Shown piece after piece: positions 10,779 through 35,477 of a DNA stretch of 64,000 nucleotides (the first letter of the stretch is position 1; every line of letters starts with the position of its first letter). A program made the translations under genes and the position numbers. The DNA is from an uncultured Roseobacter sp. GTDB taxonomy: Bacteria > Pseudomonadota > Alphaproteobacteria > Rhodobacterales > Rhodobacteraceae. Below the pieces are notes generated by a model that was not told where the DNA came from, ran no database searches, and was given only the letters and a program-made list of their open reading frames with translations. Where the stretch lies: the NCBI RefSeq assembly GCF_947495275.1, contig NZ_CANLYL010000005.1:1-64000 (forward strand). The letters run 5' to 3'.

Positions 10779-10855
10779 GCGGTTGTAGCTCAGATGGTTA
10801 GAGTACCGGCCTGTCACGCCGGGGGTCGCGGGTTCGAGCCCCGTCAACCGCGCCA
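10779..10855 (+). tRNA. tRNA-Asp (GTC), copy 1
   Basis: A 77-base tRNA with acceptor GCGGTTG/CAACCGC, D-loop GCTCAGATGGTTAGAG, anticodon loop CTGTCAC giving anticodon GTC, T-arm GGGTTCGAGCCCC, discriminator G and encoded CCA. It is identical to the copy at 11368-11444. Confidence 0.97.
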
Positions 10856-11367: not shown

Positions 11368-11444
11368 GCGGTTGTAGCTCAGATGGTTAGAGTACCGGCC
11401 TGTCACGCCGGGGGTCGCGGGTTCGAGCCCCGTCAACCGCGCCA
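11368..11444 (+). tRNA. tRNA-Asp (GTC), copy 2
   Basis: A second 77-base tRNA-Asp with encoded CCA, identical in sequence to the copy 589 bases upstream. Its flanks differ from those of copy 1, so only the tRNA itself is repeated. No clear U-rich terminator follows. Confidence 0.97.
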
Positions 11445-31427: not shown

Positions 31428-31988
31428 TTATTCGCCGCGTGACAACGCCGCGACTCCCGTACGCGCGACATCTGTCAGACCAAGCGGTCGCATCAGTTCG
31501 GCAAAGGCGTCGATCTTGTCAGGCGCACCGGTAATTTCAAAAATGAAACTTTCCAGCGTACTGTCGACCACACTGGCGCGAAAGATATCTGCAAGCCTCA
31601 AGGCTTCGACCCGCTTTTCGCCTGTGCCAGAGACCTTGAACATGGCCAATTCCCGCTCGACGCTTGCACCTTCAACAGTCAGGTCGTGCACATCGTGAAC
31701 GGAGACGATCCGGCCAAGCTGCGCCTTGATCTGCTCAATGACCTGAGGTGTGCCGGATGTCACGATGGTGATGCGGCTGAGATGTCCGGTGTGATCCACT
31801 TCCGCGACGGTCAGGCTGTCGATGTTGTACCCGCGCCCGGAAAAGAGCCCGATGACACGGGCCAGAACGCCCGGCTCATTCTCGACCAGTACCGCCAAGG
31901 TATGGCGTTCCACCACATCCGAAAAAGTGGGCCGCAGATTATATGCGGAATGGCTGGTGGCGCCTTTTTTGATTTTTAGGGGGGACAT
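31428..31988 (-). CDS. ilvN: Acetolactate synthase small (regulatory) subunit
   Basis: Regulatory subunit of acetohydroxyacid synthase that mediates feedback inhibition by valine. The 186 residues have the ACT domain at about 27-100 (HTLAVLVENEPGVLARVIGLFSGRGYNIDSLTVAEVD) and the ALS_ss C-terminal domain (VEALRLADIFRASVVDSTLESFIFEITG). It is the last gene of the ilvB - lipoprotein - ilvN operon. An extra lipoprotein gene separates it from its catalytic partner. Confidence 0.95.
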   Translation of the reverse strand: MSPLKIKKGATSHSAYNLRPTFSDVVERHTLAVLVENEPGVLARVIGLFSGRGYNIDSLTVAEVDHTGHLSRITIVTSGTPQVIEQIKAQLGRIVSVHDVHDLTVEGASVERELAMFKVSGTGEKRVEALRLADIFRASVVDSTLESFIFEITGAPDKIDAFAELMRPLGLTDVARTGVAALSRGE

Positions 31989-32018: not shown

Positions 32019-32678
32019 CTACTGATAAACACCGAAAAGTTCGCATTCGAAATAGCCTTTTCTTTCAAGGAAATACGCAACAGATATGTTTTCTGCTTGA
32101 TATTCCCTTACGTTGTTTTCGCATTGGACAATCGCATCCTTTACGGCATCTTGAATATTGTCGTAATTGAAAGAAGTCCCAACCCGGCCTGAGACGTTGG
32201 TGGAAATAGCTATAAAGTTGCCTGACTGAGTTTTCTCGACTGCATCTTTCACGATGCCCGTGACGGCTTGAGGCAGAGAATGGCGATTGGCAACCTCTTC
32301 AGGGACCAGCGTTGCGTATAGAACACATCTCTTGCCATGCATTCCGTCGCAAAACGCACTGGTTGTTTTTTTTGCATCGTCTTCGGAGATCATTCCAAAA
32401 TTGGAGGTCCAGCCGCTGCCTCCCGGCGTCACATAAAATGCGGCAAAACCATCATCCAGTCTAGAACGAAACTCTTCAAATCCCTTTCTTTGAGGCGCGG
32501 CCAGTTTTTTGTTGGAGTGAACGACGAGCTTTGATCGACCGACAATGTTAAGTTGCGACTTATCAAAAATCTCGTTTGGCACCTCTGTAGAAAATGTAGC
32601 GATGTCATTCACAGAGCTTTCATTACACCCAACGGCGGCGGACATTAGAAGCAAGAGCCCTATTCTAGCACACATCAC
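32019..32678 (-). CDS. Hypothetical lipoprotein inserted between ilvB and ilvN
   Basis: A 219-residue protein with a lipoprotein signal (MMCARIGLLLLMSAAVGC; lipidated Cys near 18). No domain was recognised in the mature part. Its ATG overlaps the ilvB stop by four bases, so it is translationally coupled within the branched-chain operon, yet its base composition is low: 22 and 24 G+C in the 60-base blocks 32041-32100 and 32101-32160, against 38 in a block of ilvB. This suggests acquisition from elsewhere or relaxed selection. A link to amino acid synthesis is not apparent. Confidence 0.75.
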   Translation of the reverse strand: MMCARIGLLLLMSAAVGCNESSVNDIATFSTEVPNEIFDKSQLNIVGRSKLVVHSNKKLAAPQRKGFEEFRSRLDDGFAAFYVTPGGSGWTSNFGMISEDDAKKTTSAFCDGMHGKRCVLYATLVPEEVANRHSLPQAVTGIVKDAVEKTQSGNFIAISTNVSGRVGTSFNYDNIQDAVKDAIVQCENNVREYQAENISVAYFLERKGYFECELFGVYQ

Positions 32679-34426
32679 ACCAACACACTCCCCTTGCTGT
32701 CGATCACACCCTGAGTGCTGGCTTCGCCCAGCAGCATTTCGTTGTGTGCTTTACCCGACGGGATCATCGGGAAGCAGTTTTCGTGTTTCTCGACTAGACA
32801 GTCGAAGATGACCGGGCCGTCGTGGGTGATCATCTCCATGATTGCGTCATCGAGATCGTCCGGGTCGGAACACAAAATCCCCTTGGCCCCAAAGGCATCC
32901 GCCAGTTTCACGAAATCGGGCAGGGCTTCGGACCAGCTTTGTGAATAGCGCTCGCCATGCAGCAGTTCCTGCCACTGACGCACCATGCCGAGACGTTCGT
33001 TGTTGAGGATGAACTGTTTCACGGGAAGCCGATATTGAACGGCCGTGCCCATCTCCTGCATGTTCATCAGCCAGCTGGCCTCACCCGCCACATTGATGAC
33101 CAAGGCGTCGGGATGCGCCATCTGCACGCCGATCGAGGCCGGAAAACCATAACCCATTGTGCCCAGGCCCCCGGAGGTCATCCAGCGATTGGGGTCTTCA
33201 AACCCGAGATATTGCGCGGCCCACATCTGGTGCTGACCCACTTCGGTACAGATGTAGCGGTCGTATTTCTTGGTCAATTCTTCAAGGCGCACCAATGCGT
33301 GCTGCGGCTTGATGATCTTGCCCTTCTGCGTGAACTTCAGGCAATCGACCTTTTTCCATTCCTCGATCTGCGCCCACCATTTGGTCAGCGCTTCGGAATT
33401 GGTCTGGCGCCCGCGTGATTTCCAGACTTTGAGAATGTCTTCAAGCACATGGCCAACGTCGCCCACAATCGGGATGTCCGTCTTGATGACCTTGTTGATC
33501 GAGGAGGGGTCAATGTCGATATGCGCCTTGGTCGATTTCGGGCTGAAGGCGTCGATGCGCCCGGTGATCCGGTCATCAAACCGCGCGCCGATGTTGATCA
33601 GCAGGTCGCAATCATGCATCGCCATATTTGCCTGATAAAGCCCGTGCATGCCCAGCATGCCCAGCCAGTTTTCACCCGACGCAGGATAACAGCCCAGCCC
33701 CATCAGCGTGGAGGTGATCGGAAATCCGGTGGATTTAACAAGCTCGCGCAGCAACTGGCTGGCCGCCGGGCCGGAATTGATGACACCGCCGCCCGTATAG
33801 AAAACCGGTTTCTTGGCCTTTTCGATCGCGGCAACAAGTTCGGTGATCTCCTCCATGTCGCCTTTGACCTTCGGCTGGTAATGCGACACGGAAGGTTTCG
33901 GCGGCGTATAGGTGCCGGTGGCAAACTGAACGTCCTTGGGAATGTCGACCAGCACCGGACCGGGACGGCCATGCGTGGCGACATGGAACGCCTCGTGCAG
34001 AACGCCGGAAAGCGCGTCGGTTTCTTTCACCAACCAATTGTGTTTCGTGCAAGGCCGGGTAATGCCGACCGTATCTGCCTCCTGAAAGGCATCCGAGCCG
34101 ATCATGAAGGTCGGCACCTGACCGGTCAGAACGATAATCGGGATCGAATCCATCAACGCGTCCGTCAGGCCGGTAACCGCATTTGTCGCGCCTGGGCCGG
34201 ATGTAACGAGAACGACGCCGGGTTTGCCGGTTGCACGGGCGTAACCTTCGGCGGCATGCACAGCACCCTGTTCATGACGCACCAGAATATGCCGGATGGC
34301 ATTCTGTTGAAAAACCTCGTCGTAAATCGGTAGTACGGCGCCACCGGGGTAGCCAAAGACGGTGTCCACACCCTGATCAATCAAGGCTTGGACAATCATT
34401 TTTGCACCGGACATTTGCCGTGTCAT
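32675..34426 (-). CDS. ilvB: Acetolactate synthase large (catalytic) subunit
   Basis: Thiamine-diphosphate and FAD enzyme making 2-acetolactate and 2-aceto-2-hydroxybutyrate for valine, leucine and isoleucine. The 583 residues show the N-terminal Pyr domain (VFGYPGGAVLPIYDE with the catalytic Glu near 50, RHEQGAVHAAEGYARATG, VTSGPGATNAVTGL), the central FAD-linked domain, and the TPP domain (GLGTMGYGFPASIGVQMA, ending GMVRQWQ). A GGAG site precedes the ATG. Expression is likely controlled by the attenuator described upstream. Confidence 0.96.
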   Translation of the reverse strand: MTRQMSGAKMIVQALIDQGVDTVFGYPGGAVLPIYDEVFQQNAIRHILVRHEQGAVHAAEGYARATGKPGVVLVTSGPGATNAVTGLTDALMDSIPIIVLTGQVPTFMIGSDAFQEADTVGITRPCTKHNWLVKETDALSGVLHEAFHVATHGRPGPVLVDIPKDVQFATGTYTPPKPSVSHYQPKVKGDMEEITELVAAIEKAKKPVFYTGGGVINSGPAASQLLRELVKSTGFPITSTLMGLGCYPASGENWLGMLGMHGLYQANMAMHDCDLLINIGARFDDRITGRIDAFSPKSTKAHIDIDPSSINKVIKTDIPIVGDVGHVLEDILKVWKSRGRQTNSEALTKWWAQIEEWKKVDCLKFTQKGKIIKPQHALVRLEELTKKYDRYICTEVGQHQMWAAQYLGFEDPNRWMTSGGLGTMGYGFPASIGVQMAHPDALVINVAGEASWLMNMQEMGTAVQYRLPVKQFILNNERLGMVRQWQELLHGERYSQSWSEALPDFVKLADAFGAKGILCSDPDDLDDAIMEMITHDGPVIFDCLVEKHENCFPMIPSGKAHNEMLLGEASTQGVIDSKGSVLV

Positions 34427-34478: not shown

Positions 34479-34505
34479 AAAAAAGCCCCCGTTCTTGGCG
34501 GGGGC
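34479..34505 (-). terminator. Attenuator terminator of the ilv operon
   Basis: On the minus strand, GCCCCCG - CCAAGAA loop - CGGGGGC is followed by TTTTTT. It lies between the leader peptide and ilvB. Its 5' arm shares two bases with the antiterminator stem, so the two structures compete. Confidence 0.85.
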
Positions 34506-34546
34506 GCATGGGTCAGACTATGGTCTACCGTTACCGGCCCATGCGC
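34504..34546 (-). promoter_or_regulatory. Antiterminator stem of the ilv attenuator
   Basis: On the minus strand GCGCATGGG (34538-34546) pairs perfectly with CCCATGCGC (34504-34512). The 5' arm covers the end of the leader peptide codons (Arg-Met-Gly), so a ribosome reading to the stop codon blocks it, while one stalled at the Val/Ile codons leaves it free. The 3' arm overlaps the terminator arm. Confidence 0.75.
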
Positions 34547-34578
34547 GTATTTCCTACGATGACGACTAGAGATGTCAT
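34531..34578 (-). CDS. Leader peptide of the ilv operon attenuator
   Basis: A 15-residue peptide, MTSLVVIVGNTRMGR, with five branched-chain residues in a row (Leu-Val-Val-Ile-Val). AAGGAG precedes the ATG by ten bases. It sits between a good promoter and the attenuator terminator, exactly the arrangement of ilvB/ivbL-type leaders, in which ribosome stalling on Val/Ile/Leu codons favours readthrough. It is too short for standard gene finders. Confidence 0.85.
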   Translation of the reverse strand: MTSLVVIVGNTRMGR

Positions 34579-34606
34579 TGCCGTGAGGCTCCTTGATGCT
34601 GGCGGG

Positions 34607-34635
34607 ACATTATGACTGTGACTCTGGGGCGTCAA
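34607..34635 (-). promoter_or_regulatory. Promoter of the ilv operon
   Basis: On the minus strand TTGACG (34630-34635) and TAATGT (34607-34612) have a 17-base spacer. Transcription would begin near 34600, about 22 bases before the leader ATG. Confidence 0.7.
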
Positions 34636-34754: not shown

Positions 34755-35477
34755 TTAATGGGCGTCGAGTTTCTCAATATCTTCGCGGGCAGACAGCGTG
34801 AGTTGCTGAACTTCTTCGGCAAGGACCTTGAATTCCTGCGCGATGATGGCCAATCCCTTGCCGGCCTCTCCGGCTCTGGAGGCCTCTACAGAGGCATTGA
34901 TGGACATGGCGCGAACGTATCTGCCAATGCGCTCCAGTCTGTTGAGACTTTGGTCCAGCCGTGCGGCCGACTGCATTGCGCGTTCCAACTGTTCAGCGCG
35001 GCCGCTTTCAATGCCCGTCCAGAAACCCTCGACCAGCGCGCTCACGGCTTCAAAAAATTCCTTTTGGCCAAAGGCAATATAATCAAGAAGTTGTTTTTCC
35101 GGGATGCCGGTTTCCGTCGCGCTATCCTCAACCAGTTTTTCGGTGAGGTCAGCCATGCGGGTGATCACCTTCATTTCTGTTTTGTGATTCACGGAGATGG
35201 CAGCAAGCCAGACGCTCAACACATCCGGTAGGGTTTCAAATACGGCGACCCCTTCGACAACGCGCAGCGTATGACGGATGGTGCGTGCATGGGCCGCGAG
35301 TTCTTTCCCAAGAGCGTCACGTTCCTCCGCCGTCTTTTCGCCCGACAGCAGACTGACCGTCAAAGCCACACGCACAACCCGCGCCCGCAGTGTCGCCACG
35401 CGGTCAATCGCGTCACGATAGGGCAGGGTGTCGAGCAGTGCTGCGTCTGGCACCGCGATTTGGCTTTGAACATTCAT
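34755..35477 (-). CDS. Soluble chemoreceptor-like protein with a truncated MCP signalling domain
   Basis: A 240-residue protein without a membrane segment. The C-terminal part reads INASVEASRAGEAGKGLAIIAQEFKVLAEEVQQLT, which closely follows the tip-proximal region of the methyl-accepting chemotaxis signalling domain. The long hairpin expected on either side is short, and HAMP is missing. The N-terminal 150 residues are helical and unassigned. It could be a cytoplasmic sensor of the chemosensory system or a member that has lost signalling. It lies between the ilv operon and a two-component system. Confidence 0.75.
   Translation of the reverse strand: MNVQSQIAVPDAALLDTLPYRDAIDRVATLRARVVRVALTVSLLSGEKTAEERDALGKELAAHARTIRHTLRVVEGVAVFETLPDVLSVWLAAISVNHKTEMKVITRMADLTEKLVEDSATETGIPEKQLLDYIAFGQKEFFEAVSALVEGFWTGIESGRAEQLERAMQSAARLDQSLNRLERIGRYVRAMSINASVEASRAGEAGKGLAIIAQEFKVLAEEVQQLTLSAREDIEKLDAH

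Follow-up and report, generated by a model that had tools for sequence, protein, structure and literature searches.

A probable ilvB attenuator of Rhodobacteraceae with the leader stop codon in an antiterminator hairpin, and related leaders ahead of Bcr/CflA-type transporter genes

The enterobacterial ilv, leu and thr attenuators carry codons for the amino acids of their pathway in a leader ORF, and an antiterminator and a terminator compete downstream of it. The leader discussed here lies ahead of ilvB in a 64,000-nucleotide stretch of DNA from an uncultured Roseobacter sp., the whole of which is called the window. It differs from the enterobacterial attenuators in that no 1:2 pause hairpin has been demonstrated and the antiterminator and terminator overlap by very few bases. 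Attenuation of ilv genes in alphaproteobacteria is already in print. PMC1273637 credits Vitreschak et al. (2004) with the description of a leader peptide for ilvB in alphaproteobacteria, and PMC2573895 tabulates the S. meliloti ilvIH cis element from the same study. As far as these citing papers portray them, the ilv and ilvIH attenuators of Vitreschak et al. likewise have a leader peptide before ilvB or ilvIH. The hairpin around the leader stop codon and the reuse of the design ahead of transporter genes, both described below, are fresh leads.

Two other alphaproteobacterial systems can be compared with this locus. The uORFC-8-2 motif, found before cysS in Rhodobacterales, has been predicted by comparative analysis to be a ribosome-mediated attenuator (PMC8632094). 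From the portion of that paper available, it is like the ilvB leader in its conserved short ORF and in order, but it uses cysteine codons, precedes another gene and has another structure. In Sinorhizobium meliloti, rnTrpL/peTrpL is a trp attenuator whose terminated RNA is an sRNA (PMC7298713, PMC10117765). In the accessible parts of these two papers it is, like the ilvB leader, a ribosome-mediated attenuator in an alphaproteobacterium; however, it uses tryptophan codons and its ORF is leaderless, whereas the ORF of the ilvB leader has a ribosome site.

The leader ahead of ilvB in the window

The features of the leader and of the genes behind it are collected in Table 1. A first-pass annotation of this DNA, made from the letters alone, had proposed a promoter, an AAGGAG ribosome site, a 15-codon leader with an LVVIV run, an antiterminator, a terminator and a T-run. 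Each of these was found at its place on the minus strand, and the 5' arm of the antiterminator does lie over the last sense codons as had been claimed. The observation ahead of ilvB is confirmed as real, and its first-pass reading is supported. What had been missed is that the antiterminator is branched and bears a hairpin around the leader stop codon. The claim that the 3' arm shares bases with the terminator stands in a refined form, in that only two bases are shared here and, the basal pairs apart, both hairpins can form together.

Table 1. Features of the ilvB leader and downstream genes (window coordinates)
Feature	Position	Strand	Basis
Promoter: -35 TTGACG 34635-34630, 17-base spacer, -10 TAATGT 34612-34607	34607..34635	-	read from sequence
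Leader ribosome binding site AAGGAG	34589..34594	-	read from sequence
Leader ORF MTSLVVIVGNTRMGR + TAA, 15 codons, ATG 34578 to TAA 34531	34531..34578	-	sequence, module scan
Control codons CTA GTC GTC ATC GTA (LVVIV) in leader ORF	34569-34555	-	
Antiterminator outer helix, 5' arm GCGCATGGG; last base of codon 11 into codon 14	34538..34546	-	sequence
Stop-codon hairpin CCG-GTAA-CGG, loop holds leader stop codon	34528..34537	-	relatives, covariation
Third junction stem TAGAC-CATA-GTCTG	34514..34527	-	in MFE fold
Antiterminator outer helix, 3' arm CCCATGCGC	34504..34512	-	sequence
Bases common to antiterminator 3' arm and terminator (last two of arm)	34505-34504	-	
Intrinsic terminator GCCCCCG 34505-34499 / CGGGGGC 34491-34485, then T6 34484-34479	34479..34505	-	sequence
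ilvB, acetolactate synthase large subunit, presumed regulated gene	32675..34426	-	NF006581 1129 bits, above cut-off
ilvN, acetolactate synthase small subunit, downstream of ilvB	31428..31988	-	NF008864 225 bits, above cut-off

The locus has the parts of an attenuator. Its leader ORF combines clustered pathway codons with a ribosome site and is predicted to be translated. An intrinsic terminator, which was also found by a second, separate sequence scan, lies between the leader and the pathway gene ilvB, and 52 bases separate the T-run from the ilvB ATG. The antiterminator overlaps the terminator and has its 5' arm within reach of a ribosome on the leader. The leader RNA folds with z = -2.87, a stability equalled by 2 of 200 shuffles. 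When both strands of the window were scanned for the module of leader, antiterminator and terminator, the ilvB leader was the one instance, and the same scan found none in 60 single strands of random DNA of 64 kb each, generated as first-order Markov sequence. A sigma-70 scan of the window does not include the promoter of the leader, whose TAATGT matches TATAAT at 3 of 6 positions.

The first-pass expectation that the element would be unannotated is borne out, as no Rfam match in the leader stretch attains its gathering score; at that threshold the window yields three tRNAs only. Two tRNA matches have equal scores of 67.9 bits and lie about 590 bases apart on the plus strand (10779-10852 and 11368-11441). 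Weak matches at relaxed score to NsiR1, Spot 42, sR9 and anti-hemB are taken as chance; Atu_C8, which came up at that setting too, is discussed further below. A 219-residue lipoprotein-like ORF (32019-32678, minus strand) lies between ilvB and ilvN, and its GTG start overlaps the ilvB stop codon.

Conservation and covariation in the family

Of the 198 family genomes searched, 130 supplied a region upstream of an ilvB match, and those of the other 68 were not fetched. A Leu/Ile/Val-rich leader ORF was found in 128 of the 130, a count that is not independent because the ORFs were selected for Leu/Ile/Val content, and 127 of these 128 leaders have at least four such residues within six codons. 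A scorable antiterminator and terminator are present in 126 of the 128. The promoter and the ending of the leader peptide provide evidence that is independent of the selection of the ORFs. TTGAC occurs ahead of the leader in 127/128 relatives, compared with 7/128 in an adjacent control stretch; it lies 50-64 nt before the nominal leader start in 118 of the 127, and the best promoter spacer is 17 in 109 of them. Among the 110 leaders of 15 residues, the R-M-G-R ending is kept at R12 in 107, M13 in 107, G14 in 103 and R15 in 102, and a purine-rich 4-mer (from a liberal list) is present at the ribosome site in 109. The leader, the stems, the promoter and their spacing are kept across the family, as had been anticipated for close relatives.

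The locus might at first be taken for an ordinary terminator that serves the upstream minus-strand gene (34755-35477) and is accompanied by a short ORF that arose by chance, for that gene has the same orientation and its end lies about 120 bases ahead of the promoter. This explanation is hardly credible. The conserved promoter intervenes between the two, the module was absent from all of the random strands, and the stop hairpin covaries; the conservation of promoter, leader and antiterminator together already contradicts it.

The standard module is absent from two of the 130 family regions. One of these (L027) has no leader, and the other (L081) has a 14-residue leader, MHQKTKRVLVTNKY, and a terminator, but its hairpins differ. 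Variation in the start codon was also observed. The leader of L006 starts with TTG, and in L114 there is no ATG, GTG or TTG in frame before the CTC-GTA-ATC-GTG (Leu-Val-Ile-Val) run, which may mean that ATT or ATC is the start codon or that the sequence contains an error.

A covariance model, R1, was built from 71 leaders and matches 167 of the 198 family genomes at E <= 0.001. In the window's own genome it finds a single site, the ilvB leader, at E up to 1. In at least three family genomes (G001, G004 and G008) the match precedes a transporter gene and not ilvB. One family genome, G024, has two ilvB-like genes (contigs C49 and C24) with an attenuator match just upstream of each. When a crude and strict rule was applied to 88 ilvB upstream regions from across the class, of which 15 were not judged as no ilvB start was located, candidates were found in four (L162, L145, L200 and a doubtful L244), and L162 belongs to the window's own family. 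The ilvB-linked form looks sparse in this class sample, yet a pattern scan discussed below found many in Rhizobiales-type genomes.

Pairing was assessed on two alignments, both of which omit most of the divergent members. A1 holds 71 leaders, and A2, which was fitted to the model, holds 100 sequences, 95 ilvB-linked and five transporter-linked. On A1, 95.2% of the cells of the outer helix and stop hairpin are paired, compared with 93.1% after shuffling and at most 59.4% when the partners are slid, and the terminator is paired in 99.6% of its cells. On A2 the outer helix is paired in 97.6% of cells. Two-sided changes occur in 16 cells of A2 against 1.4 in shuffles; thirteen of them fall in the stop-codon hairpin, all three pairs of which show such changes, and the remaining three comprise one outer-helix cell and two terminator cells. 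The stems had been expected at first pass to covary. For the stop-codon hairpin this is clearly the case, but in the alignable members the outer helix hardly varies and the terminator covaries little, its two pairs with two-sided changes being reached by 29 of 500 shuffles.

The stop-codon hairpin was examined by other means as well. A stem of at least three pairs surrounds the stop codon in 127/128 relatives. In a position scan the share of relatives with such a stem peaks at the stop (0.99-1.00, versus 0.73 at the terminator), whereas the mean hairpin score is 10.8-10.9 at the stop and is higher only at the terminator (15.5). When 3' flanks were swapped among all 128 sequences, none of 500 trials reached the observed score, nor did any of 2000 when the swap was confined to the 38 minority sequences with unusual 5' arms. 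On sequence comparison, the covariation support for the outer helix comes from divergent members in which the arms are replaced and complementary. In L105, for example, the outer arms are GCGCAGTCGC/GCGACTGCGC, and in a swap control on the 13 divergent members the observed score was reached in 0 of 1000 trials. The third junction stem is only partly conserved: the segment folds below -1 kcal/mol in 61 of 119 relatives, with a mean of -1.31 compared with -0.38 for shuffled letters. The overlap between antiterminator and terminator is 2 or 3 bases in 115 of the 126 scorable relatives and 1 to 4 in 120.

A branched and partly covarying junction might also belong to a metabolite riboswitch or to a leader that binds a protein. 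Here this is very improbable, as there is no riboswitch among the Rfam matches of the window, even at relaxed score, and the core that is conserved consists of the last part of an ORF, whose stop codon occupies a hairpin loop.

Control codons and a model of the switch

The anatomy and its conservation support the first-pass reading of this locus as an ilv attenuator, and a cis-acting, ribosome-mediated transcription attenuator of ilvB is the reading adopted here, with a probability of about 0.9. It is proposed that transcription begins some 20-25 nt ahead of the leader ATG, a distance deduced from the promoter, and that a ribosome follows the RNA polymerase. When charged Leu, Val and Ile tRNAs are ample, the ribosome would reach the stop codon and cover the 5' arm of the outer helix and the stop hairpin. 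The 3' arm would then be free, the terminator would form with its full basal pairs and transcription would stop in the T-run. When these tRNAs are short, the ribosome would wait at about codons 5-7, and the outer helix and stop hairpin could form. The antiterminator would take the two basal bases of the terminator, weakening it beside the T-run, and readthrough into ilvB would result. Because the overlap is small, the two hairpins do not exclude each other as wholes and the change falls on the base of the terminator.

Masked folding, in which the footprint of a ribosome was masked in 126 relatives and the probability of the terminator basal pair was read, gives the two outcomes of this model. 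The median is 0.98 with the ribosome at the stop codon and 0.28-0.33 with it at codons 5-7; the effect is weak at codon 4 (0.57) and there is none at codon 8 (1.00). In 107 of the 126 relatives the probability rises by more than 0.1 when the ribosome is moved from codon 6 to the stop; the reverse is seen in one and there is little difference in 18. For the window itself the values are 1.0 at the stop, 0.23-0.24 at codons 5-6 and 0.61 at codon 7. The size of the footprint affects the limits of the effective region, as with a shorter footprint codon 8 is also effective (0.42) and with the longest codon 7 fails (0.93). In folding without a ribosome the median is 0.38, and 0.5 in the window, which suggests that an untranslated leader would leak. 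The upper terminator stem remains paired when the antiterminator forms, the best pair having a probability of 0.84-0.90 with the ribosome at codons 5-7. Readthrough may be partial, given this pairing and an overlap of 2-3 bases in most relatives.

At each of codons 4-8, between 102 and 109 of the 110 leaders encode Leu, Val or Ile. The choice among synonymous codons was compared between leader codons 4-9 and 30 ilvB genes. GTA makes up 54.9% of the Val codons in the leaders and 4.6% in the genes, CTA 38.8% and 0.9% of the Leu codons, and GGA 77.4% and 5.8% of the Gly codons. This bias fits the use of slow codons, or it could reflect the avoidance of structure. Rarity alone is insufficient to account for the choice, for leader codons 4-9 never include ATA or TTA, which are the least used codons for Ile and Leu in ilvB.

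Related leaders in Rhizobiales-type genomes and ahead of transporter genes

The Rfam family RF02502 (Atu_C8), which is filed as a "Rhizobiales sRNA", has the architecture found in the window, namely an outer helix and two inner hairpins with the stop codon in the first. Its end-to-end alignment with the window scores 21.3 bits, short of the gathering score of 50, and on that score the window is not filed as a member despite the matching architecture. In the RF02502 consensus an ORF can be read as MIILVVGPRMGRAV, and its stop lies in the hairpin loop. A pattern derived from RF02502, which is narrow and gives proportions that are not valid for the family at large, yielded 30 loci (L263-L292). 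Twenty-nine of these are in what we take to be Rhizobiales-type organisms and the remaining one is in Nisaea nitritireducens; none is from Agrobacterium. All 18 of the 30 that were tested are RF02502 above the gathering score. As judged by its start sequence, an acetolactate synthase ORF starts within 350 bases downstream in 27 of the 30, and the four of these that were scanned are all above the NF006581 cut-off. The other three are the Nisaea locus, which has a transporter gene, and two without an ORF because the fetched stretch ends. The Rhizobiales leaders differ from that of the window in a longer stop hairpin and in two additional codons that separate R-M-G from the stop. RF02502 is very probably the ilv attenuator in these organisms.

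The listing of this homologous-looking element as an sRNA, and the precedent of rnTrpL/peTrpL as far as the available parts of PMC7298713 and PMC10117765 describe it, raise by analogy the question of whether the terminated leader RNA, and the peptide, could be a stable product that acts in trans alongside the control in cis. The cis function accounts for the conservation by itself, and such a product is considered unlikely. A literature search, which had most subscription journals outside its reach, turned up no paper on Atu_C8 by name.

The attenuator design is also found ahead of transporter genes. R1 matched 15 of 289 class genomes, four of them within the family. Outside the family, each of the six matches at E <= 2.1e-6 is followed closely by a Bcr/CflA-type MFS gene. 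Of five weaker class matches (L157-L161), the two that were inspected, L157 and L158, look like chance. RF02502, over the same 289 genomes, matched five genomes (six matches) at E <= 0.001. One match is above the cut-off, that in G304, and it is transporter-linked; those in G448 and G385 are ilvB-linked, and those in G289 and G471 look like chance. When seven of the transporters were scanned with TIGR00710, six (L138, L151, L254, L255, L259 and L260) were above the cut-off and L156 was just below. Among the 14 closest class homologues of one of these proteins (at least 53% identity, query included) the leader and stop hairpin are present in nine and absent in five. Seven of the nine were already known from the RNA searches and two, L296 and L298, are new. 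The leader is absent from all 16 of the more distant transporter homologues fetched, and the best homologue in the window's own genome (L308) is without it. The transporter-linked leaders (L138/L281, L151-L156, L254, L255, L259, L260, L296 and L298) come from several alphaproteobacterial families, and L254, L255, L259 and L260 are from four genomes of the window's family. Second R1 matches in G126 and G168 (L261 and L262) are next to neither ilvB nor a transporter gene. Nothing relevant to the transporter-linked form was recognised in the literature search, within the same reach.

The transporter-linked leaders are mostly valine-rich, and two, L300 and L255, have few Leu, Ile or Val codons. 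The latter, and the position of related elements before Bcr/CflA efflux-type genes, would suit a general sensor of slowed translation, responding for example to ribosome inhibitors and not to branched-chain amino acids, and any pause at codons 5-7 is predicted to act alike. For such a sensor, however, the near-constant Leu, Val or Ile at codons 4-8 of the ilvB leaders and their rare Val and Leu codons would not be expected, and this explanation is quite improbable. The balance of the comparisons tips slightly towards a single alphaproteobacterial design, with the stop codon in the loop of an antiterminator hairpin, that is common to two unrelated genes, the ilvB-type synthase and a Bcr/CflA clade. 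Atu_C8 would then be its terminated product, and in the transporter version expression of the transporter would be tied to slowed translation of the leader, which is mostly valine-rich.

For a large bacterial family, these results model ilvB control base by base, at an element that goes unreported in the window when Rfam's curated threshold is applied. They also indicate that what Rfam lists as an sRNA is an amino-acid attenuator. With the same RNA design before a transporter gene, the signal to which the transporter responds becomes directly testable.
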